Below, piece after piece: positions 23,519-35,397 of a DNA stretch of 64,000 nt (positions are counted from its first letter, which is position 1; every line of letters begins with the position of its first letter). The notes under the pieces are model-generated. The model was given only the letters and a program-made list of their open reading frames with translations, was not told where the DNA came from and made no database searches. A program made the translations under genes and the position numbers. The stretch is taken from the NCBI GenBank assembly GCA_913055695.1, contig CAJXKF010000001.1, forward strand, positions 80,354-144,353. Direction: 5' to 3'. Source of the stretch: an uncultured Methylophaga sp. Its GTDB lineage: Bacteria; Pseudomonadota; Gammaproteobacteria; Nitrosococcales; Methylophagaceae.

Positions 23519-24940
23519 CTAGCGGCCTTTCACGGCGAGTCCCTGGCTGGCCCGCCACCACAGTCCTGCGCTGAGAATGATGAGCCCACTCAAAATACCC
23601 GGCAGCCCCTCATAGACCGCGTTATGCCAGCCGGCAAAGCGCCAGCTCAAGGCCACGGCAAGCCCGACCAGCATCGCAATGACACTCAAACGCTGACCAG
23701 GCCTGAAATTCAACGATAAGACAATCAGCAGTGGCGCAAAGGCACTGGCCAGCCCGGACCAGGCGAAAATGACCAGACTGAAAACACTATCACTGGCCAT
23801 CAGCGCCCAAAGCAGCGCGAGGAAGACAATCACAATTGTCGTCATTTTGAGATAAAGGGTGTTATCGATATCACGTGGCAACAGATCATGGGTGATGGCA
23901 GCAGAACAATTCAGAACCAGTGAATCCGCAGTCGACATGGTCGCGGCAAAAATACCAGCCAGCACCAGCCCGACGAATACGGGTGACAGTAATTCCATCG
24001 CCATCGTCGGTAATGCCAGCTCAGCATCAAAGCCTGCCGGATCGCCGCCGAGATACACCCTGGAAAGCAGCCCCACCCCGGTCGACATGCAATAGAAGGC
24101 AGTAAACCAGACGTAGTACCAGACGCGGGCACGCACCATGCGACCGGTTTCTGCCAGAGCCATAAACCGGATCATGACATGCGGCTGACCTATGACCGAA
24201 AAACCGGCAAACATCCAGCCCAGCGCAAACATCACACCGCCAGCAATCCCAGGCAGAATCAGATCATCAGGAAACAGGTCGAGAAAACCATCGACCTTGT
24301 TCATCTCGGAGATAGCGCCATCGATGCCGCCGAGAGACACCGTCGCTATCACCAGCATCACGGCCATCGCGATAATCATAACTACTGACTGTGCGGCATC
24401 AGTCCAGATAGAAGCGCGAATCCCCCCGGCCATGCAATACAAGGCCACCATAATCGCCCCCATTACGGCGCCAGCATAATAAGGCCAGTCGAGTAAAACA
24501 TGCAGTGCCTTGCTGCCAGCGACCAGCTGGGCACCGGCATAAGCCATCAGAAATACCAGTGAAATCAGGGCGATCAGTCTTTGTAGCGTCTGATCATGTT
24601 GACCGTGCCAGTTACTGAGCACACCAGCGTAACTGGGCTGAGAAGTATCCTGGGTTGCCTGGCGCAGGCGTGAATGAATGAAAGTAGAGGCAATGAAGTC
24701 ACCGAGAATCCATGCCACCATCAGCCATACCGCGGCAAAACCAGTCGCATAGGTGTAACCGATGACCCCGATAAACATGTAGCCGCTGTTATTGGTGGCA
24801 ACGGCTGACAGGCCAACCAGGCTGGGCGGGACGTCGCTACTGGCAAGATAATAGTCTTTTTTGGTGCCACGGCTGCGCAGCATCGAACTGACACCAATAG
24901 CGACAAATATCCCCAGAAAAGCAAGAAAACTCCAGACCAT
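23519..24940 (-). CDS. SSS-family sodium:solute symporter, PutP-like
   Basis: A 473-residue transporter with about 13 membrane segments. The N-terminal YYLASSDVPPSLVGLSAVATNNSGYMF region and the VIGQPHVMIRFMA segment resemble Na+/proline symporters (PutP), and FAATMSTADSLVLNCS carries the conserved Ser residues of the Na+ site. Proline is the most likely substrate, which would serve as an osmolyte or nutrient. It is followed by the AGCS gene and preceded by the TPR gene of the ectoine region. Confidence 0.88.
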   Translation of the reverse strand: MVWSFLAFLGIFVAIGVSSMLRSRGTKKDYYLASSDVPPSLVGLSAVATNNSGYMFIGVIGYTYATGFAAVWLMVAWILGDFIASTFIHSRLRQATQDTSQPSYAGVLSNWHGQHDQTLQRLIALISLVFLMAYAGAQLVAGSKALHVLLDWPYYAGAVMGAIMVALYCMAGGIRASIWTDAAQSVVMIIAMAVMLVIATVSLGGIDGAISEMNKVDGFLDLFPDDLILPGIAGGVMFALGWMFAGFSVIGQPHVMIRFMALAETGRMVRARVWYYVWFTAFYCMSTGVGLLSRVYLGGDPAGFDAELALPTMAMELLSPVFVGLVLAGIFAATMSTADSLVLNCSAAITHDLLPRDIDNTLYLKMTTIVIVFLALLWALMASDSVFSLVIFAWSGLASAFAPLLIVLSLNFRPGQRLSVIAMLVGLAVALSWRFAGWHNAVYEGLPGILSGLIILSAGLWWRASQGLAVKGR

Positions 24941-24977
24941 GATTTACCTTCCTTTCAAACCAGTCCAGAGCGCGGCT

Positions 24978-25856
24978 TCAGCTGTCTCCGCCTGGTTTGA
25001 GTATGTCGTCGAGTCCGGGATAGGATTGCAGCGGTGATAGAGCCGGGTCGTTGTGACTCTGCTCGCGGTAGGTTTCACTGCAGTTCACCGCACGCTGCAG
25101 ATAATGTACGGCTTCATCCAACTGCCCCAGCGCGGTATGCGCACAGGCGAGCTGGTAGAAAGCATGACCGTTTTCTGGATCCGACTCCAGCGCCTGATGA
25201 CAGAGATTGATCGCCCATTGCGGCTCTGAAATCTCCAGCACAGCATCGGCTTTATAGGTCAAAGCCTCAGTATCGTAGGGACGGATCGCCATGATCTGGT
25301 CATATACAGCGATCTTATTTGACGGATTCGTCTCCTGCCCTGCCCGTAACCACAGCGACTGAACTTCCTGGGTGCGCTCGATTTTCTCGCGGTTCTCTTC
25401 GATCTGCTGCGTTTCTTTGCTCAACTGCTGCTCGATAGCATGCAGCCGTTGCTCATATTCAGTGATAAGGCTGTTGATTTCCTGGTCAGCCAGCGTATGA
25501 ACCCGCTCCTTGATTTCACGGATGGAAGACCAGCCCACCAGCACCAGAATTGAAGACGCGGCGGCAATCAGATAGAAGAAATAGGTCACCGTATTAGTAG
25601 CGTAACTGACCGCTTTATCAACCGCGGACAATTCGCGATCAACCATCATCTGGATTAATTCCGCGCGGTTGGCGGCCATATCGGTACGCAAGGATTTTAA
25701 TTCATCAAGCACATAACGCTCGATAAAAGGACTATAAAGCGGCTCTTCAAGCTGCTCTATCTGAGCTTCGATTCTCGCCTCTTCTGCCTTTTCAGGTGCT
25801 GCAAACAACTGAAACGACAGCAGGCTCAGACATATCGCTATCAGGATGCGAGACAT
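24978..25856 (-). CDS. Membrane-anchored TPR protein overlapping the ectoine aspartate kinase gene
   Basis: A 292-residue protein. A signal peptide (1-19) is followed by a helical periplasmic region, one membrane segment (about 88-108, YFFYLIAAASSILVLVGW), a coiled coil (about 115-165, rich in Glu, Gln and Lys), and TPR repeats (about 175-265, e.g. GHAFYQLACAHTALGQLDEAVHYLQRA). I do not know the family. Its start lies 16 bases inside the end of the ask gene, so it is translationally coupled to the ectoine operon, which is not part of the known ectABC-ask set. It may scaffold or sense at the membrane; this is inference. Confidence 0.82.
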   Translation of the reverse strand: MSRILIAICLSLLSFQLFAAPEKAEEARIEAQIEQLEEPLYSPFIERYVLDELKSLRTDMAANRAELIQMMVDRELSAVDKAVSYATNTVTYFFYLIAAASSILVLVGWSSIREIKERVHTLADQEINSLITEYEQRLHAIEQQLSKETQQIEENREKIERTQEVQSLWLRAGQETNPSNKIAVYDQIMAIRPYDTEALTYKADAVLEISEPQWAINLCHQALESDPENGHAFYQLACAHTALGQLDEAVHYLQRAVNCSETYREQSHNDPALSPLQSYPGLDDILKPGGDS

Positions 25857-27283
25857 ATCGCTTTACCGTGATCATGAATTTCAACCAGTACACTATGCAG
25901 ACTTTTGATGGCGTTGTCATAATCGCCTTCATCAATAATAAACTGCATATCGACCTGACGCATAGACTGATGCATCGCCAGCACGGAGATATTCTCCTTG
26001 GCCAGAGAGGCAACCGTTTTCGCCAGGATACCCGGAATTTTCATGTCACTGCCAATCGCCGAGACGATGGCGACCTTCTGCTGATTGATTTCAGCATCGG
26101 CAAAGCGTTGTTCCAGCGCATTGCGAATACGCTTGATGGTTTTCAGGTTGGTCGACAGGTAATGGGTGATGGTGTTGGCATTGATATCCTTGGAGATGAT
26201 GTGCGCCTTGAAACGGCGAATCGTCGCCAGGATCTCACGATCATAATCATCGATATTGCCTGCCATGTCCTGATCAAACAGTTCAAAGGCATACACACCC
26301 TTACAGCCGGCAATGATCTCAACACAGGGGTCGACACTGACATAATCGCCTGTGATTAAAGTACCGGCATGTTCAGGCTCAAAGGTGTTACGAACCCGAA
26401 GCGGGATATCGTTCCGACGCAGGCCTTTGGCAGCTTTGGGGTGAATCGCCTCCATCCCCAGATTGGCGAGCTGATCGGCTACATCATAGTTGGTACGTCC
26501 GATAGGCACCGCGTTGTCTTCACCGACCAGACGCGGATCTGCACTGCTCAGGTGGAATTCTTTGTGAATGATGGCTTCATTGGCTTCGGTCAGCACCGCA
26601 ATACGGCTGAACGTCATCTCACTGTAGCCGCGATCGAATGTCGACATCAGACCATCGTCACTATGGGCGTAACCGGTAACGATAGGCAGCTGTTTGTTCA
26701 GATCAATTTCGGCAAAAGCGCGCTTGATACGTTCATCCAGCGGCACGTGCTTATCAGTCTGCCAGGCGGTCAGATCAACAAATTTGGCGTCAATACCATC
26801 GCGCTGAAGTAACTGCGCCGTATTCCAGGCACTATGGGCCTCACCGATACTGGCCAGCATTTCACGCACTGTTTCCAGATGCATATCCAGTTCAAAGTGG
26901 CCGTGCTGACACAAACGATGCAGATCAGCCAGGCAGCGTTCAGCGTCATCCAGGCGCTCACCGATAAAGTTATCAGCGCGCTCAAGATTGGCCTTTTTCT
27001 TATAAAAGCCTTTGTTGATATCAAACATTTTCTGCTTGAGTTCATGCAGCGCATCACGCCAGCTGTCATCTTCCTCACCGTTGGCAAACAAGCCATAGAC
27101 ACCGGGTTGGCCTGACTTTTTGTGCTCAAGCAGTAAATCGGTCATGCCGCCATAGGCGGAGACCACAAAAATTCGGTTGTAAATTGAGTCGTTATGTACC
27201 GGTTTGAGAATAATATTATCGCGCACCGCCTCGTAGTCACTCATGGACGTGCCGCCGATTTTTTCTACCGTGTGAAAACTCAT
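25841..27283 (-). CDS. ask: Aspartate kinase, ectoine-operon type
   Basis: A 480-residue enzyme that phosphorylates L-aspartate, feeding aspartate semialdehyde to ectoine synthesis. The N-terminus VEKIGGTSMSDYEAV is the kinase motif; the nucleotide region has FVVSAYGGMTDLL; two ACT domains lie at the C-terminus (VAIVSAIGSDMKIPGILAK). The long insert after residue 60 is typical of the specialised Ask_Ect form, which is thought to escape the feedback inhibition affecting the housekeeping enzyme. It is the fourth gene of ectABC-ask and is separated from ectC by a 106-base gap with two hairpins. Confidence 0.93.
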   Translation of the reverse strand: MSFHTVEKIGGTSMSDYEAVRDNIILKPVHNDSIYNRIFVVSAYGGMTDLLLEHKKSGQPGVYGLFANGEEDDSWRDALHELKQKMFDINKGFYKKKANLERADNFIGERLDDAERCLADLHRLCQHGHFELDMHLETVREMLASIGEAHSAWNTAQLLQRDGIDAKFVDLTAWQTDKHVPLDERIKRAFAEIDLNKQLPIVTGYAHSDDGLMSTFDRGYSEMTFSRIAVLTEANEAIIHKEFHLSSADPRLVGEDNAVPIGRTNYDVADQLANLGMEAIHPKAAKGLRRNDIPLRVRNTFEPEHAGTLITGDYVSVDPCVEIIAGCKGVYAFELFDQDMAGNIDDYDREILATIRRFKAHIISKDINANTITHYLSTNLKTIKRIRNALEQRFADAEINQQKVAIVSAIGSDMKIPGILAKTVASLAKENISVLAMHQSMRQVDMQFIIDEGDYDNAIKSLHSVLVEIHDHGKAICLAS

Positions 27284-27389: not shown

Positions 27390-27794
27390 TCAGTCGGCAA
27401 TAGCGTCGGCTGTCAGTTCATAAGCACCATCTTTGTTGTGGACTTCATTGCCAATTAGTGGCGGATTGAAGACACAAGCCAGTTTCAACTCTTTGAAAGC
27501 ACGCAGCATGTGACGATCGTGCTTGTTGAGGTTATAAAGCGTGCCGGGCGTGATGGGATACTTCTTACCGTCATCCAGGGTTTCGACTTCGCCTTCACCA
27601 CTGATGCAGTAAACGGATTCCAGGTGATTCTGGTAATGCATCTGGAAATCAGCACCTTCGTAGATAGTCGTAATATGGAATGAATAGCCCATATTGTCGT
27701 CTTTCAGTAGCAGGCGGGTGCTGTCCCAGTTACCTTTGGGATCATAGATCTTGCGGGTGGTTTGTTCTGCTTCCTGAAGTTGTCTGACGAGCAT
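27390..27794 (-). CDS. ectC: L-ectoine synthase
   Basis: A 134-residue cupin enzyme that cyclises N-gamma-acetyl-diaminobutyrate to ectoine. The sequence [16 protein letters not shown] at the N-terminus, [19 protein letters not shown] (metal-binding cupin motif) and [14 protein letters not shown] are characteristic. The ATG at 27794 has AGGAA 7 bases upstream and gives the standard length; the longer frame to 27848 is not credible. Hairpins lie on both sides of the gene (27331-27360 and 27837-27857). Confidence 0.97.
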
Positions 27795-27836
27795 GTTAGT
27801 TCCTCTGTGATGAATAAATCTGTTTGCCGAGTGAAT

Positions 27837-27857
27837 GACCGGCGCCAAGCGCCGGTC
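27837..27857. promoter_or_regulatory. Perfect hairpin in the ectB-ectC gap
   Basis: GACCGGCGC-CAA-GCGCCGGTC forms a perfect 9-bp GC-rich stem with a 3-base loop, 14 bases after the ectB stop in the direction of transcription. No T-run follows. It may protect or separate transcript segments. Confidence 0.6.
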
Positions 27858-27870
27858 TCAAAATGATCGC

Positions 27871-29205
27871 TTAAGAGCGGGCCATTTTTTCCACTTCTTC
27901 GCTGACCGAATAATCGCCTTCGAAGTAGTCTTTTTCTTCCGGAATCGAATCCGCTTTGTCACAGACTTCACGAATAGACTCTTCCAGAATATTGATGCCT
28001 TTCTCCAGGCTTTCCTGAGAGATTGTCAATGGACACAGGAATTTGACCACATGGTCTTCGGTGCCACTGGTTTCGATGATCAAGCCTTTCTGGAAAGCTT
28101 TATGGGTGATGGCACTGGCCAGTTCACCACTGACACAGTTGATGCCACGGAACATGCCGCGACCGTGGGAGTTGAAGTTACCTTCACCGTATTTCTCAAC
28201 GATCTTGTCGACACGTTCGGCGATGTAATCCCCTTTGGCCTGCACTTCCTTGGCGAATTTGTCATCTTTCCAGTAGTTATCGATCGCGGCCTTTGCTGTA
28301 ACAAAGGCCGGGTTGTTACCACGGAAAGTACCGTTGTGTTCACCCGGTTTCCACTGGTCCAGTTCAGGCTTCATCAGCAGGATGGCAAAAGGCAGACCAT
28401 AGCCACTCAAGGATTTGGAAACGGTCACGATATCCGGATAAATGCCGGCTTCTTCGAAGCTGAAGAAAGTACCGGTACGGCCGCAACCAGCCTGGATATC
28501 ATCAATAATCAGCAGCACATCGTGTTTCTTACAGACTTCTGACAGGCTCTTCAGCCAAGTCATGGAACAGGCGTTGATACCGCCCTCGCCCTGTACGGTT
28601 TCGACAATAACGGCAGCCGGCTTATCCACACCACTGCTTGAGTCAGATAGCACTTTATCCAGGTAATTAGTGGTATCCACATCGTCACCCATATAGCCGT
28701 CATAAGGCATACGGGTGGCACCATGCAGGCTGATGCCGGCACCACCACGGTGATGACCATTACCGGTGATAGCCAGTGAGCCCAATGTCTGACCATGCCA
28801 GCCATTAGTGAATGAAATGACATTCTCACGGCCGGTATATTTACGGGCTGTTTTCAGCGCCGCTTCCACGGCGTTAGTGCCTGTCGGGCCGGTGAACATG
28901 ACGATATAGTCAAGATCACGTGGCTTTAGAATGTATTCGTTGAAGCTTTCCAGGAACTCACCTTTAGCACGGGTGTGCAGGTCCAAGCCCTGTGTAATGC
29001 CATCTTCTTCGATGTATTTAATCAGTTCCTTTTTGAACAGCGCGTTATTATGACCATAGTTGAGTGAACCGGCACCGGCCAGAAAGTCTAAATAGACATT
29101 GCCTTCTTCGTCATAAACGAACTCATCTTTTGCACGGTTGAAAATGCGTGGGAAAGAGCGCGCATATGAGCGAACTTCCGATTCAATTTCCTCAAAAATT
29201 TTCAT
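27871..29205 (-). CDS. ectB: Diaminobutyrate-2-oxoglutarate transaminase
   Basis: A 444-residue PLP enzyme that converts aspartate semialdehyde to L-2,4-diaminobutyrate with glutamate as amino donor. Typical EctB stretches are [50 protein letters not shown], and the PLP-Lys in [10 protein letters not shown]. The length is slightly over the usual 420-430. It is the second gene of the operon, 56 bases after ectA. Confidence 0.97.
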
Positions 29206-29261: not shown

Positions 29262-29768
29262 TTATTGGAGGGGACCGATTCTGACCAGCATTTCCGTTTC
29301 ATGCTGGCCGGCAAAGTGTTGCTGGCGGTCAAACATCACAGAGTGATTCAACTCTGCACCCAGTTTATTTGCCAGACTTTCAAACAGTGCCCATGACGCC
29401 CGGTTATCCGGGGTAATGGTGGTTTCGATGAATTTGATCTGGCCTTGCGGCTGCCGCGACAGGATGTCGCGTAACATGCGGCCGGCCAGGCCCTGCCCGC
29501 GGGCTTTTTCGCCGACTGCGACCTGCCAGATAAAGAGGGTGTCGGGGTTATCCGGCTGAATGTAGCCGGAGATAAAGCCGACAATGTCACCTTCTTTTTC
29601 TGCAGCCACCGAGGTCGCGGAAAAATGGGTGCACTGAAGCAGGTTGCAATACATGGAATTGGTATCCAGTGGCGGGCACTGGGCGATGAGTTCGTACACC
29701 GCTGAACCGTCCTCGGCCGCGGGGGCTCGCAAGGTAATCGGAGCAGCGTCAGCTTGTGCGAGATTCAT
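29262..29768 (-). CDS. ectA: Diaminobutyrate acetyltransferase
   Basis: A 168-residue GNAT enzyme that acetylates diaminobutyrate at the gamma nitrogen. APAAEDGSAVYELIAQCPPLDTNSMY is the EctA N-terminal signature, and VGEKARGQGLAGRML is the acetyl-CoA loop. It heads ectABC-ask. The upstream 162 bases, shared with the divergent cheW-ectR pair, are strongly AT-rich and carry a perfect palindrome at 29893-29906 near the far side. Confidence 0.96.
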   Translation of the reverse strand: MNLAQADAAPITLRAPAAEDGSAVYELIAQCPPLDTNSMYCNLLQCTHFSATSVAAEKEGDIVGFISGYIQPDNPDTLFIWQVAVGEKARGQGLAGRMLRDILSRQPQGQIKFIETTITPDNRASWALFESLANKLGAELNHSVMFDRQQHFAGQHETEMLVRIGPLQ

Positions 29769-29906: not shown

Positions 29907-29930
29907 TATATAGTACACTAAACAAATAAA

Positions 29931-30404
29931 ATGTCCAGCCCCCTCAACGAATCCTATTTATTACAGATGTCAGAACAATTACACGACCAACAATGGCTTT
30001 GCTTCCAGATAGAAGATGAGACCTATGCCCATCCGGTGAATCAGGTCAGGGAAATTCTCGATTATCTGGCGCCGGTGCCGGTGCCCGGTGCGCAATCCTG
30101 TGTCGAGGGCGTGCTGAATGTCAGAGGTGAAATCGTCACCATCGTATCGAGCAAGGAATTGCTGGGACTGAATCAGTCAGCCAGAGACAGTGAACACATT
30201 ATTGTTCTGGAAACCTCTTCCGGTCTGGTAGGCATCACCGTGGATGAAGTGGAAAAGATCAGTGTACTGGCTGATGACGACATGATGCCTGTCGAGCGCA
30301 GTCACGACAGCAGCCCGGTCAAAGGCACGATCAATCATGACAATCAGCTGCTGATTCTGACTGACTTTGAGCGTTGCATTAACGAATTGGAAAATTATGA
30401 GTAA
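29931..30404 (+). CDS. CheW-domain protein coupled to ectR
   Basis: A 157-residue protein made of a single CheW domain: WLCFQIEDETYAHPVNQVREIL, VEGVLNVRGEIVTIVSSKELLG, and HIIVLETSSGLVGITVDEVEKI are the classic elements. CheW normally couples chemoreceptors to the kinase CheA. No cheA or receptor gene is nearby. Its stop overlaps the ectR start (ATGAGTAA), so the two are made together. The ribosome binding site at 29931 is weak. A role in osmotic signalling to or alongside EctR, or a stand-alone adaptor, is conjecture; this pairing is not the described ectoine operon layout. Confidence 0.9.
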   Translation: MSSPLNESYLLQMSEQLHDQQWLCFQIEDETYAHPVNQVREILDYLAPVPVPGAQSCVEGVLNVRGEIVTIVSSKELLGLNQSARDSEHIIVLETSSGLVGITVDEVEKISVLADDDMMPVERSHDSSPVKGTINHDNQLLILTDFERCINELENYE

Positions 30405-30987
30405 AACTATCGGTTTAAATCTGGACGCAGTTTATAATCTCGATCTGAACAAAGAACAAAAGGATCAGCTGTTGAACCAGATTGAAGAAGTGTTGATCGC
30501 CCTGCGCCGGGTTATCCGGGCTACCGATCTGCACTCCAAATACCTTGCCAAAACCACCGGTTTGACCGCACCTCAGATCCTGCTGCTACAGACGCTGCGT
30601 GATAAAGGTCAGATCACTATCGGCGAACTGGCCCAGGAAGTGAGTTTAAGTCAGGCCACAGTAACCACGATCCTGGACCGGCTGGAAAAGCGCAAACTGG
30701 TCTACCGGCAGCGTTCCGAAACCGATAAACGTAAAGTGCATGCCTATCCCACGGATGAAGCACTGGAAATTCTCAAAAATGCCCCGATTCCCTTGCAGGA
30801 GCAGTTCACCCGTCAGTTCGGGGATTTGCAGGAATGGGAACAGACCATGATTATTTCGGCCCTGAAACGTGTCGCGCAGATGATGGATGCCCAGCATATC
30901 GACGCCTCTCCAGTGCTTGATATCGGTTTGCTGGATCGTCAGGATACCCTGGTTGATAAGCCGGCTGCTTACGCTGAAGATGAGTGA
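30397..30987 (+). CDS. ectR: MarR-family regulator of ectoine synthesis
   Basis: A 196-residue winged-helix repressor: TGLTAPQILLLQTLRDKGQITIGELAQEVSLSQATVTTILDRLEKRKLVYRQRSETDKRKVHAY is the MarR DNA-binding core with wing (two pieces shown are contiguous). The long N-terminus (LDAVYNLDLNKEQKDQLL) matches the EctR subgroup known from halotolerant methanotrophs and methylotrophs, where it represses ectABC-ask. The start at 30397 is the ATG overlapping the cheW stop; the longer frame lies within cheW. It is divergent from ectA with a palindrome in the shared promoter region. Confidence 0.9.
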   Translation: MSKTIGLNLDAVYNLDLNKEQKDQLLNQIEEVLIALRRVIRATDLHSKYLAKTTGLTAPQILLLQTLRDKGQITIGELAQEVSLSQATVTTILDRLEKRKLVYRQRSETDKRKVHAYPTDEALEILKNAPIPLQEQFTRQFGDLQEWEQTMIISALKRVAQMMDAQHIDASPVLDIGLLDRQDTLVDKPAAYAEDE

Positions 30988-30993
30988 GCCTGT

Positions 30994-33093
30994 CTAGTCA
31001 TGTTTGAGTAAGTCACTGAGTTCTTCTACCGCCATCGGCTTATTGAAATAAAAGCCCTGAAACTCCTCACAGCCCATATCTAGTAACATCTGGGCCTGCG
31101 CTTCTGTTTCCACACCCTCGGCGATTGTCGATAAATTGAGATTGTGGGCCAGTTGCACAATGGTTTGAGCAATCGCCGCATCCTTGCGATTAAACACAAT
31201 CTCCTCAACAAAGGATTTATCAATTTTCAGCGTGTCTATCGGGAAGTTCTTCAGATAGCTCATCGAAGAATAGCCGGTACCAAAATCGTCAATCGCCAGC
31301 CGAACCCCGGTTTTCTTGAGCGCAAACAGCAATGGAATGGTTTCTGCCACATCATGCAGCATCGCCGTTTCAGTGATTTCCAGTTCCAGTGTTTCTGCCG
31401 GTAGCCGGGTTTGCTCCAGGGTTTGCCTGACCCGCTCTGGCAGATAGTTCTGGTTAAACTGTAATGCAGACAGGTTAATCGCCACCCGGTAAGCACAGCC
31501 CAGCTCCTGCTGCCATTGATACACCTGCTGGCAGGCCTGCATCAACACCCAGTCACCTATCGGCAGTATCAGTCCGGTCGACTCGGCAATATCAATAAAA
31601 CTGTCCGGTGTCAGCAGACCTTTTACAGGATGCCGCCAGCGCAGCAGCGCCTCGAAACCGACAATCGTCTCGCTGCGGGCATGATACTGGGGCTGATAAT
31701 AAAGCTCGAACTGCTCTTCTCTGAGGGCAATCCGAAGATCATGCTCCATCTCCATTCTGAGCTTGAGATAGTTATTCATGCTCTCGGAGAAGAACTGGTA
31801 ATTATTGCGACCGACCTGCTTGGCGTGATACATCGCCACATCGGCATGCTGCAGCAGCACCTGAACATTGTGACCGTCGGTCGGAAATACCGTGATACCA
31901 ATACTCACGGTGACATAAAGTGGTGCACCGCCAATCACAAATGGTTCTGAGAAACTCTCGATCAGGCGGTTGGCGATTTCCGCAATATCATCGACATGAT
32001 CCACATCATCAAGCAGCACGGTGAACTCATCACCGGCGAGTCGCGCTACCCGGTTATCACTTTCCAGCGTAATTTTGGCTACAAGGTCCGAGTCCCGCAC
32101 ACACTCGCGGATTCTGGTTGCGGCCTGACATAACAGCTCATCACCGACATGATGACCATAGGTATCATTCACATGCTTGAAACGGTCTAGGTCAAGAAAC
32201 ATCAGGGTGAAACGCCGCTGGTGTCTCCGGGCGCTGGCGATAGTGGTTTCCAGCTGCTCGATAAACAGTCGCCGGTTGGGCAACTCAGTGAGCGTATCGT
32301 AGTAAGCGTAGTAGGTGATTTCCTGCTCAGATTGTTTCAACGCAGTAATGTCATGCAGAGTACCGACAATACGCCACTGACCGTATTCGAAATTGATATC
32401 CGTGCGCTCATTCACAAACAGCATGTGGCCGTCCGGCCGCTGCACCCGGTATTCAATGTCATAAGGCTTTTTATCTTTGATCGCCAGTCGTACGGTGCGC
32501 ATGAAACGGTTGCGATCATCGGGATGGATCACCGTCAGCAGACGTTTCAGCGTCAGTTTTTTCTCCCGCGTGAGTCCCAGCATATCGAACATATCCGCTG
32601 AGCACTCAATGCTGTCTGCCTGGTAATCCCACTCCCAGTAAACCAGGTGCGCAATCGACTGCGCCTTGGCCAGTTTATTTTTATTGAGACTGAGCTCCTG
32701 CAGGGTCCGGTTGGCCTTGAGCACATATTTGACACGGTGATTAAACAACGGCCATTTAAGCGGCTTGGTCATGAAATCGGTGGCCCCGACCTGGAAAGCG
32801 CGCTCAATATCTTCAACTTCATCCAGCGATGTCACCATAACGATGGCGCATTCCTGGCCGCGCGGCAGTTGCCGCAATTTCTCACAACAGTCAAAACCGT
32901 CCATGCCCGGCATCGAGACATCAAGCAGCGTCATATCCGGTTTGTACAGGTTGAAGGCAGCAATGGCTTCCAGCCCGTTGCTGGCTTCGTGAATATCAAG
33001 ATCAATCGTTTTCAGTGATTGCCGCATCAGCATCCGGGTGACCGGATCATCATCCACGATCAAAACAACCGACTTTCTCCCCGTTTCCTCCAC
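30994..33093 (-). CDS. Receiver-PAS-GGDEF-EAL cyclic-di-GMP regulator
   Basis: A 699-residue cytosolic protein: receiver (about 8-125, phospho-acceptor Asp58), PAS/PAC (about 145-255), GGDEF (about 260-430), EAL (about 445-695). The GGDEF signature reads AGDEF (353-357) in RLAGDEF, a substitution tolerated in some active cyclases. The EAL domain keeps EALLRW (481-486), and DDFGTGYSS and KIDKSFV carry phosphodiesterase residues, so c-di-GMP hydrolysis is likely. It directly follows the hybrid kinase gene (no gap), which should phosphorylate it. It is the output of the TonB receptor-YfiR-kinase operon. Confidence 0.93.
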   Translation of the reverse strand: MEETGRKSVVLIVDDDPVTRMLMRQSLKTIDLDIHEASNGLEAIAAFNLYKPDMTLLDVSMPGMDGFDCCEKLRQLPRGQECAIVMVTSLDEVEDIERAFQVGATDFMTKPLKWPLFNHRVKYVLKANRTLQELSLNKNKLAKAQSIAHLVYWEWDYQADSIECSADMFDMLGLTREKKLTLKRLLTVIHPDDRNRFMRTVRLAIKDKKPYDIEYRVQRPDGHMLFVNERTDINFEYGQWRIVGTLHDITALKQSEQEITYYAYYDTLTELPNRRLFIEQLETTIASARRHQRRFTLMFLDLDRFKHVNDTYGHHVGDELLCQAATRIRECVRDSDLVAKITLESDNRVARLAGDEFTVLLDDVDHVDDIAEIANRLIESFSEPFVIGGAPLYVTVSIGITVFPTDGHNVQVLLQHADVAMYHAKQVGRNNYQFFSESMNNYLKLRMEMEHDLRIALREEQFELYYQPQYHARSETIVGFEALLRWRHPVKGLLTPDSFIDIAESTGLILPIGDWVLMQACQQVYQWQQELGCAYRVAINLSALQFNQNYLPERVRQTLEQTRLPAETLELEITETAMLHDVAETIPLLFALKKTGVRLAIDDFGTGYSSMSYLKNFPIDTLKIDKSFVEEIVFNRKDAAIAQTIVQLAHNLNLSTIAEGVETEAQAQMLLDMGCEEFQGFYFNKPMAVEELSDLLKHD

Positions 33094-35397
33094 CTAATTC
33101 TCTCCCAGCCGGCCTTTGAGATTGAGCCTGGCCTGTTCATAACATTCCAGCAGTGCATCCAGATGTGGCGAAACATGTTCAACCTGGTTGTGACGACCAA
33201 GCTTTTCCACCTGATGAGCCACTTCACTGACTTTGACTGCGCCGATATTGGCAGAACTGGATTTGAGGGCATGGGCAGCTCTGAATACTCTTTCGGCATC
33301 GCCATTCTGAGCGCCGTGCTGAATATCATCAATTAAAGCCGGTGTTTGCTCCAGATACAACTCGACAATATTGTTGATGAGCGCCGGCGCCTGCTCACCC
33401 GACATCCGCCGGATCTCATCCAGCACCGCCTCATCAATCACGGGTGCATTGTTTATTTCATCACCGCTTTTAATCAGCCAGCGGCCCACCATGCTGCTCA
33501 GTTGTTCGATGCTGAAGGGTTTAATCAGAAAATCATCTGCGCCAGCGTGACGAAATTCCGCTTCAACGCCATCCTGAATATCGGCGGTCAAAGCGACGAT
33601 AGGCGTCTCGGTGTTAAGTCCCTGCCCTCTGCTGTTTCGTATCAGCGCCGTGGCCTCCAGACCGCCCATTTGCGGCATGTGATAATCCATCAGAATCAGA
33701 TCGTAATGTCTTTTATCACACGCATTGACGGCTTCCAGCCCATTACTGACAATCTTGACCTGATAGCCGAAGTTTTCGAGCATGCCGGCAGCGACGGACT
33801 GATTGATTTCATTATCTTCGGCCAGCAGGATCAAATTACCATTGGCTTTGGCCTGTCTGACCGGTGCCTGGCGGGGTTTGCTGGCCGGCTGAAGACTGTC
33901 CAGTCGCTGCATCGGAATCCTGAACCAGAATAAACTACCCTGATTTTCCCGACTTTGGACGCCATAAAAGCCTTTCATCAGTTTGATCAACTGGGCACAG
34001 ATCGCAAGTCCCAGACCCGTGCCGCCATATTGCCGGGTCACTGAACTGTCCGCTTGGGCAAAGGGTGAGAATATCGTCTCCAATTTGTTCTCGGGAATGC
34101 CGGCACCGGTATCTTCAATTTCAAAATTGAGCCAGTGCTCCCTGTCGTTCTGTTCAGCCAGCAAACTGACTTTAACATGACCTTTGTGGGTGAATTTAAT
34201 GGCATTGTCGATGAGGTTATTTAGCACTTGCCGTAATCGCAAGGGATCGCCGAGATAATCGGCGTCACAGTCATATAAAGCAAGCTCAAGCTCAAGGCCC
34301 TTTCGCTCTGCCTTGGCACGATTGGTTTCCACCACTGATTTCATGAAAGCCGGCAGGTTGATACGCTGTTTTTCCAGCTCGACCTTGTCAGCATCCAGTT
34401 TGGAGAAGTCCAGGATCTGATTCAGTAAAGCCAGGAGCGACTGGGCGGAATCATTAAGCAGTTGTACATTCTCCCGGGCTTCATCATCCAGATCATTGAG
34501 TTTCAGCAATTCGGCAAAGCCAATAACGCCGTTGAGCGGAGTTCTCACTTCATGGCTCATCATCGCCAGGAACTGAGCCTTGGCCCGGTTCGCCTCGTTA
34601 GCCAGTTCCAGGGCAGTTTCCAGTGCTTCAGTTCTGGCCTGTACCCGCTGTTCCAGTTCGACGTTCATGGTTTCTAGCTGCTGTCCACGCTGCTGCACCT
34701 CGCTGATCATCAGGTTGAAACTGTCAGACAGCTGATTAAATTCCACCGTTGCCGCTTTCGGTGCCCGCCGTTTGTAATCGCGATGTATGGTGATATCCCG
34801 AATTGTCGCCAGCATTTCGTTCATCGGCTTGGTAAACAGCGACACCAGCCATAACACCGCCACCAGACTGGCAAAAAAGGCCAGCAGCGCTGTCAGGGTG
34901 ACCACGCGATAAAAGTCTGACAACTGTGATCTCAGAGAAGCCAGATTATCCAGCAGATAGAGCACACCGATACTGTCACCGTGACTCGTCATCGGTATCA
35001 TCAGTTGCAAGCCCTGGTCATTTTCGATAAGAAGGGGAGCATGCGTACGCAACACGCGTCGCAGTAGATCATTATCCGGCAGCGTGTCAATGCCATTATT
35101 CTTGTAACTGGCAAACAGGCGGGCCTCATCATCAAAAATCATGACCTGGCTGATATCAGATCTCACCCGTACAGCTTCCAGAGATTGTCTGGCTGAGGCG
35201 GCATCATCGAATAACAACGCAGAGAGCGTATTGGTGACCAGCAGTTCCGCCAGTGCAGTCGAATCCTGCAGAGCCTGTCTCTCGATGGCCTGACGTTGAT
35301 TACTGACAATCGAGATTGAGATGATAAGAATGGTCAGCAAAACCAGTCCCATCATCGTCATCATTAAACGGAATTTGAGCGTCTTAATCCATTTCAT
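33094..35397 (-). CDS. Hybrid sensor kinase with receiver and Hpt domains
   Basis: A 767-residue inner-membrane kinase: membrane segments at about 10-30 and 163-187 flank a periplasmic sensor (CHASE8-like in length). HAMP (about 188-240) is followed by a coiled coil, phospho-acceptor His282 in MMSHEVRTPLNG, ATPase domain with N-box Asn398 and GTGLGLAI, a receiver domain with Asp571, and a C-terminal Hpt with His709 in AAHALKSSSANIG. This is a complete BarA-type phosphorelay ending in an Hpt that can pass phosphate to the downstream receiver-GGDEF-EAL protein. It overlaps the YfiR-like gene by 4 bases. Confidence 0.93.
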   Translation of the reverse strand: MKWIKTLKFRLMMTMMGLVLLTILIISISIVSNQRQAIERQALQDSTALAELLVTNTLSALLFDDAASARQSLEAVRVRSDISQVMIFDDEARLFASYKNNGIDTLPDNDLLRRVLRTHAPLLIENDQGLQLMIPMTSHGDSIGVLYLLDNLASLRSQLSDFYRVVTLTALLAFFASLVAVLWLVSLFTKPMNEMLATIRDITIHRDYKRRAPKAATVEFNQLSDSFNLMISEVQQRGQQLETMNVELEQRVQARTEALETALELANEANRAKAQFLAMMSHEVRTPLNGVIGFAELLKLNDLDDEARENVQLLNDSAQSLLALLNQILDFSKLDADKVELEKQRINLPAFMKSVVETNRAKAERKGLELELALYDCDADYLGDPLRLRQVLNNLIDNAIKFTHKGHVKVSLLAEQNDREHWLNFEIEDTGAGIPENKLETIFSPFAQADSSVTRQYGGTGLGLAICAQLIKLMKGFYGVQSRENQGSLFWFRIPMQRLDSLQPASKPRQAPVRQAKANGNLILLAEDNEINQSVAAGMLENFGYQVKIVSNGLEAVNACDKRHYDLILMDYHMPQMGGLEATALIRNSRGQGLNTETPIVALTADIQDGVEAEFRHAGADDFLIKPFSIEQLSSMVGRWLIKSGDEINNAPVIDEAVLDEIRRMSGEQAPALINNIVELYLEQTPALIDDIQHGAQNGDAERVFRAAHALKSSSANIGAVKVSEVAHQVEKLGRHNQVEHVSPHLDALLECYEQARLNLKGRLGEN

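Follow-up and report, generated by a model that had tools for sequence, protein, structure and literature searches.

An accessory cheW gene overlapping the ectoine regulator gene ectR in Methylophaga appears to represent a distinct CheW lineage

Introduction

The closest described counterparts of the locus analyzed here are the ectR loci of Methylomicrobium alcaliphilum and Methylophaga, in which a gene for a MarR-family regulator is divergent from ectABC-ask and an A/T-rich 8+2+8 pseudo-palindrome lies nearby. According to the accessible sections of a 2018 review (PMC5924519), osmotic upshock raises the level of the ectR transcript in both M. alcaliphilum and M. thalassica, EctR autoregulation is present in M. 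alcaliphilum and none was found in M. thalassica, and the cue sensed by EctR is unknown. An EctR-like repressor of the ectoine genes, CosR, occurs in Vibrio, and this homologue is said, by the title of a cited paper, to control motility in V. cholerae. The locus examined in this study shares the gene order of the described ectR loci and has a candidate box with the 8+2+8 layout. It differs from them in carrying a cheW gene, as the accessible parts of the published accounts of ectR loci name no such partner; the same is true of the accessible part of the account of CosR.

The reference points for the CheW protein are the CheW proteins of Escherichia coli and Thermotoga maritima, the latter in the CheA P4-P5 complex 2ch4. 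In E. coli CheW, the alignment of the receptor and kinase sites is maintained by an E38-R62 salt bridge (PMC3828127, accessible part). The accessible part of a second study reports that the substitutions R117D and F122S impaired array formation and CheW-P5 cross-linking and that the signaling complexes were still functional (PMC5181776). The protein described here resembles these proteins in its predicted fold and in the equivalents of E38, G57, N60, R62, G63, and G99. It is unlike them in being encoded in the ectR unit and not in a che operon, in lacking D70 and a P-x-hydrophobic loop motif, and in its separation from 42 other CheWs in a phylogenetic tree.

Results

The window, a 64,000-nucleotide stretch of DNA from an uncultured Methylophaga sp., contained an open reading frame on the plus strand (29931-30404) in which PF01584 detected a CheW domain (E = 1.2e-29; 103.1 bits against a cutoff of 23.5). 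The match spanned residues 21 to 152 of this 157-residue frame, with the CheW-like domain making up most of a small single-domain protein. Although the frame is open from the ATG at 29931, translation probably begins at the ATG at 29967, giving a cheW gene (29967-30404, plus strand) of 145 codons, because in relatives the frame ahead of the conserved start meets a stop codon or lacks an ATG within a few codons. The assignment drew on the domain match, on this comparison of starts, and on the selection and fold analyses presented below. The adjoining ectR gene (30397-30987, plus strand) encodes a 196-amino-acid MarR-family regulator of the ectoine genes (PF01047, E = 1.3e-18), which aligned over its full length with 20 other Methylophaga EctRs and, as is characteristic of EctR proteins, was clustered with ectABC. 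A first-pass annotation had described a lone cheW gene that overlaps ectR by 8 bases within the divergent ectoine promoter region. Exactly 8 bases were found to be shared between the stop of cheW and the start of ectR (30397-30404, plus strand; ATGAGTAA), and cheW and ectR lay on the plus strand with ectABC-ask diverging from them on the minus strand. An SD-like GGA was present inside cheW ahead of the ectR start (TTGGAAAATTATG).

The divergent genes consisted of ectA (29262-29768; TIGR02406, E = 3.9e-64), which is the first ectoine gene, ectB (27871-29205; TIGR02407, E = 3.8e-200), ectC (27390-27848; PF06339, E = 8.9e-58), and an ectoine-type aspartate kinase gene, ask (25841-27283; NF006614, E = 3.4e-232), all on the minus strand. 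The ectC frame is listed from a TTG, but the PF06339 match starts from residue 19, whose ATG at 27794 is the probable true start. Genes for an SSF-family sodium:solute symporter and a TPR protein followed ask on the same strand (23519-25856) and could be part of the ectoine operon. On the other side, genes for a response regulator-PAS-GGDEF-EAL protein and a hybrid histidine kinase, as judged by sequence, were convergent to ectR (30994-35397); the GGDEF-EAL gene adjoins ectR in many Methylophaga loci, both those with and those without cheW.

The annotation had also placed neither CheA nor a receptor nearby, and this was borne out over the entire contig, in which, across 600,623 bases and at E ≤ 0.001, the CheW domain was matched by no other protein, so that neither CheA nor CheV was present, and MCP signal domains were likewise missing. 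At the same threshold, the whole genome contained 14 CheW-domain matches, further CheA and CheW proteins among them, and 15 MCP (receptor-domain) matches.

A putative EctR operator, TATATAGT-AC-ACTAAACA, was located at 29907-29924 (plus strand), overlapping a TATAGT -10-like hexamer and with its center 51 bp before the start of cheW. Its 8+2+8 arrangement fits the description of the EctR footprint in the accessible part of PMC5924519, the comparison being one of layout and not of the published operator sequence. The consensus of the box comprised two 8-bp half-sites separated by a 2-bp spacer, TATATAGT-AC-ACTAAATA. Boxes with 0 to 2 mismatches were detected at all ten Methylophaga loci scanned, whether cheW was present or absent, and at L136, L143, L187, L188, L103, L107, L121, and L168; weaker matches, with 3 to 6 mismatches, were detected at L117, L118, L131, L146, L156, L169, L233, L266, and L332. 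The 16-base core of the box occurred once in the genome of the window when up to 2 mismatches were allowed, and a reversed control pattern likewise occurred once. The box center lay 50 to 51 bp upstream of cheW in the four cheW-positive Methylophaga loci scanned and in L136 and L143, and 65 to 66 bp upstream in L187 and L188, whereas in five Methylophaga loci lacking cheW it lay 142 to 165 bp upstream of ectR. These spacings indicated that cheW occupies the place of the ectR leader.

Matches to named genomes identified the genus of the window as Methylophaga. The distribution of the pairing was determined in 24 Methylophaga genomes, 22 of which contained EctR at E ≤ 1e-15; the other two were 68% and 55% complete. 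Directly before ectR, cheW was present in 11 of the 22 genomes, with an identical 8-bp overlap in every one; M. aminisulfidivorans MP carries cheW. Conservation in relatives, on which the first-pass annotation had made its proposal depend, was hence observed, half of the ectR-containing Methylophaga genomes having cheW at ectR, and the lineage was also found at ectR in other genera. One of the 22, the metagenome assembly L017 (labelled Methylophaga aminisulfidivorans, L098), had lost most of cheW to a deletion that left both ends of the gene in place. The ribosome site and start of ectR were exactly preserved (2073, minus strand). As L017 fell within the cheW-positive group in the EctR tree, this scar is most simply read as a loss of cheW. 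The remaining 10 genomes lacked any CheW match in the ectA-ectR interval and retained the same promoter-like stretch. In nine of these ectR was intact; in the tenth, the draft genome G038, it was split by a frameshift (L033, 1510-2051), which may be an assembly error.

To look beyond the genus, the 80 best-matching of 142 EctR loci from named genomes were examined. An intact cheW preceded ectR in ten of them, eight in Methylophaga and one each in MAGs of Bermanella (L136) and of a gammaproteobacterium (L143). The latter two had an 8-bp overlap, ATGAATGA. A chance overlap was ruled out by its recurrence in all 11 cheW-positive Methylophaga loci and in these two loci. A second ectR lay directly downstream in both (tandem genes at 2912 to ~4522 in L136 and 2900 to ~4501 in L143), with the copy that overlaps cheW differing from the second copy. 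Decayed copies of cheW were detected in a Pseudohongiella MAG (L117), a gammaproteobacterial MAG (L118), and an uncultured Microbulbifer (L131), with ectR retained beside each. An origin by arrival in Methylophaga alone was considered and rejected, since the same arrangement was present outside the genus.

The order of Bermanella was represented by 390 genomes, 221 of which contained EctR at E ≤ 1e-40. Scanning of the upstream stretch at 148 of their EctR loci detected CheW at four (G057, which is L136, G075, G080, and G106) and a decayed copy at one (G061, which is L131). A CheW profile that had been built irrespective of gene position was applied to the 390 genomes. The top two matches outside the training set, from G220 and G138, scored 144.7 and 143.4 bits, with the next at 125.8 bits, and both of these profile-derived genes were located between ectA and ectR. 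The second EctR of G138 and of G220 was on another contig. No overlap between cheW and ectR was present in G075, G080, G106, G138, or G220. Overall, seven gammaproteobacterial genomes outside Methylophaga carried a cheW in the ectA-ectR interval, two of them with the 8-bp overlap and four with a second EctR copy, and three more had a decayed gene. Broader samples were searched with stricter cutoffs, at which divergent members such as those of G075, G080, and G106 would be missed and absence is not proven. These searches yielded 1 of 369 genomes in the class sample (that of the window), 11 of 63 in the order sample (all Methylophaga), and 3 of 398 in the phylum sample, consisting of that of the window and two matches at 127 bits, an ordinary-CheW level, with no ectR within 1.5 kb. 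At these cutoffs, the class and phylum samples contained no further ectR-linked CheW. A plasmid search returned 8 records, all with <60% identity, and a full-text literature search, which reached few subscription papers, found no title on the cheW-ectR pair, its one hit for ectoine, ectR, and cheW in combination being a Devosia genomics paper.

The assertion that no partner of this kind occurs at known ectR loci was too strong, as an intact or decayed cheW is present at ectR in several other gammaproteobacteria. At the same time, cheW is accessory to ectR loci, given that the pairing was missing from most of the loci examined (4 intact genes at 148 loci), and it is dispensable, being absent from most ectR loci and decayed in several. 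These patterns bear on whether CheW could serve as an adaptor for EctR, binding it or bringing it to a chemoreceptor complex and so conveying the cue on which EctR leaves the ect promoter. Such a role would suit the repeated pairing with ectR, the stop/start overlap in 13 loci, the description of the EctR cue as unknown (PMC5924519, accessible part), and the loss of an array-linking motif from a protein with a retained predicted fold (see below); the second EctR in four of the seven non-Methylophaga genomes would free the cheW-linked copy to specialize. However, ectR is kept without an intact cheW in nine of the ten cheW-negative Methylophaga genomes and in L017, L117, L118, and L131, which indicates that EctR does not need CheW. 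Retention of the residues that set receptor and kinase geometry and the existence of a related CheW (L186) with no ectR within 1.5 kb also count against this role, and we regard it as unlikely.

Pairwise comparisons gave dN/dS values of 0.05 to 0.23 for cheW (10 of 11 pairs computable) and 0.0 to 0.04 for ectR (9 of 11 pairs). While evolving faster than ectR, cheW is a real gene under purifying selection, as judged from its dN/dS values. The faster evolution, the recurrent decay (L017, L117, L118, and L131), and the preserved overlap could be accommodated if cheW were a passenger or a translational leader, encoding an inert protein and setting the level of EctR by the act of its translation alone. 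A dN/dS of 0.05 to 0.23 and an intact predicted fold argue instead that the amino acid sequence is selected, making an inert protein highly improbable.

An AlphaFold2 model based on a 42-row alignment had a pLDDT of 85, compared to 49.7 with a 13-row alignment. The best Foldseek match of this model was the CheW chain 2ch4_Y (TM scores of 0.82 and 0.85; E = 3.9e-13), and the model matched the CheW of solved CheA and core-unit structures. The window protein is thus predicted to have a CheW fold. The equivalent of E38 was present in 17 of 18 ectR-linked CheWs and that of R62 in all 18 (E29 and R53 in the window protein), as were the equivalents of G57, N60, G63, and G99. D70 was lost in 17 of 18 ectR-linked CheWs and changed in 2 of 78 other CheWs. 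In the loop to which F122 of E. coli CheW belongs, a P-x-[VFLIM] motif was found in 0 of 18 ectR-linked proteins versus 78 of 78 others (near copies included), whatever the exact residue pairing. The array-linking (interface 2) loop was 16 to 18 residues long in 15 of the 18 ectR-linked CheWs versus 20 to 22 residues elsewhere. As the loop motif is not needed for the core signaling unit, according to the accessible part of PMC5181776, the ectR-linked protein was classed as a CheW variant.

The set of other CheWs was thinned of near copies ahead of tree construction. The 18 ectR-linked CheWs and an orphan CheW, L186, were set apart from 42 other CheWs with support of 100/95 in a tree that had several long branches and from which the CheA and CheV rows of an earlier tree were left out. 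In that earlier tree, the 17 ectR-linked rows alone had support of 82/49 and the 18 rows including L186 had support of 100/98. On addition of L332, the CheW of G106, L186 fell inside the group and the 18 ectR-linked CheWs alone were not split from all other rows by a single branch of the best tree, although a single clade of the 18 was not rejected (p-AU = 0.128). L332 was the weakest member, as its nearest rows by both path and identity were ordinary CheWs and D70 was kept. The EctR partners of cheW were scattered in a weakly resolved EctR tree. As the deep part of this tree is weak, both an old pair with many losses and a horizontal spread of the pair remain as histories of the arrangement. 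From these sequence comparisons, the window cheW appears to be a member of a small, distinct CheW lineage living in the ectR transcription unit.

The orphan L186 (1498-1941) grouped with the ectR-linked lineage, had no ectR within 1.5 kb, and was flanked by unrelated housekeeping-type genes, read as sufE/T-like and ndk/rlmN-like. It retained D70 and had P-T-M in the loop. A lineage member of this kind, away from ectR and with D70 and a loop P-x-M, is what might be anticipated if the window gene supplied a chemosensory system of the genome with a spare CheW of the ordinary kind, placed before ectR for historical reasons and with no link to osmolytes; the normal predicted fold and the other chemosensory parts elsewhere in the genome point in the same direction. 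Generic spares, however, would not be expected to lack the loop motif in all 18 ectR-linked copies and D70 in 17 of them, or to be retained at ectR with the same promoter spacing and overlap in Methylophaga, L136, and L143. An ordinary spare CheW is accordingly a doubtful explanation.

Discussion

This series of analyses led us to read the pairing as a lineage of CheW paralogues associated with an osmolyte regulator. What is seen in the sequence is a cheW gene placed between a conserved EctR-like operator/promoter and ectR, with no chemosensory partner encoded nearby. The explanation that we tentatively favor, while giving it somewhat less than an even chance, is that this gene encodes a dedicated CheW paralogue under osmolyte-regulator control that acts in trans on chemosensory complexes. 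This reading draws on the promoter spacing, the overlap, the separate lineage, the location of the two best profile matches, the selection on cheW, the retained coupling residues and the missing loop motif, the other chemosensory parts of the genome, and the control of motility attributed to CosR. We infer the mechanism as follows. cheW and ectR would be transcribed on one mRNA, the output of which would follow the osmotic state, and part of the translation of ectR would depend on its coupling to cheW. The CheW protein would act in trans on the chemoreceptor-CheA complexes of the cell. With the receptor- and kinase-coupling residues kept and the loop motif missing at the interface that links core units, it could replace ordinary CheW when its level rises, and the array, loosened or capped by the substituted CheW, would be retuned for taxis as ectoine synthesis changes.

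Several observations weigh against this trans-acting role. The missing loop motif could just as well reflect a protein that has ceased to function in arrays, and D70, almost always present in other CheWs, is lost from 17 of the 18. M. thalassica, which may or may not carry cheW, showed no EctR autoregulation, though its ectR transcript rose on upshock (PMC5924519, accessible part). Moreover, cheW is missing from most ectR loci and is decaying in several, L332 lies near ordinary CheWs and keeps D70, and the operator box is weak in L332, L233, and L266. Control of CheW as an output was nevertheless preferred, not strongly, over a required partnership with EctR, as ectR is kept where cheW has been lost.

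A more specific possibility, which we hold to be unlikely as it stands, is that a natural CheW without the array-linking motif, placed under the ectoine repressor, replaces ordinary CheW on osmotic change, uncouples the array, and alters the gain of chemotaxis; in a mirror version, chemoreceptor complexes would act through CheW on EctR. If the array-uncoupling version is true, this would represent a regulated adaptor swap that alters array cooperativity. The presence of an adaptor gene directly before the ectoine repressor gene, in some Methylophaga and a small number of other marine bacteria, hints at a possible link between salt stress and chemical sensing, and this conserved signaling-adaptor gene in the ectR unit offers a definite candidate for something that either feeds into the osmolyte regulator or is controlled by it.
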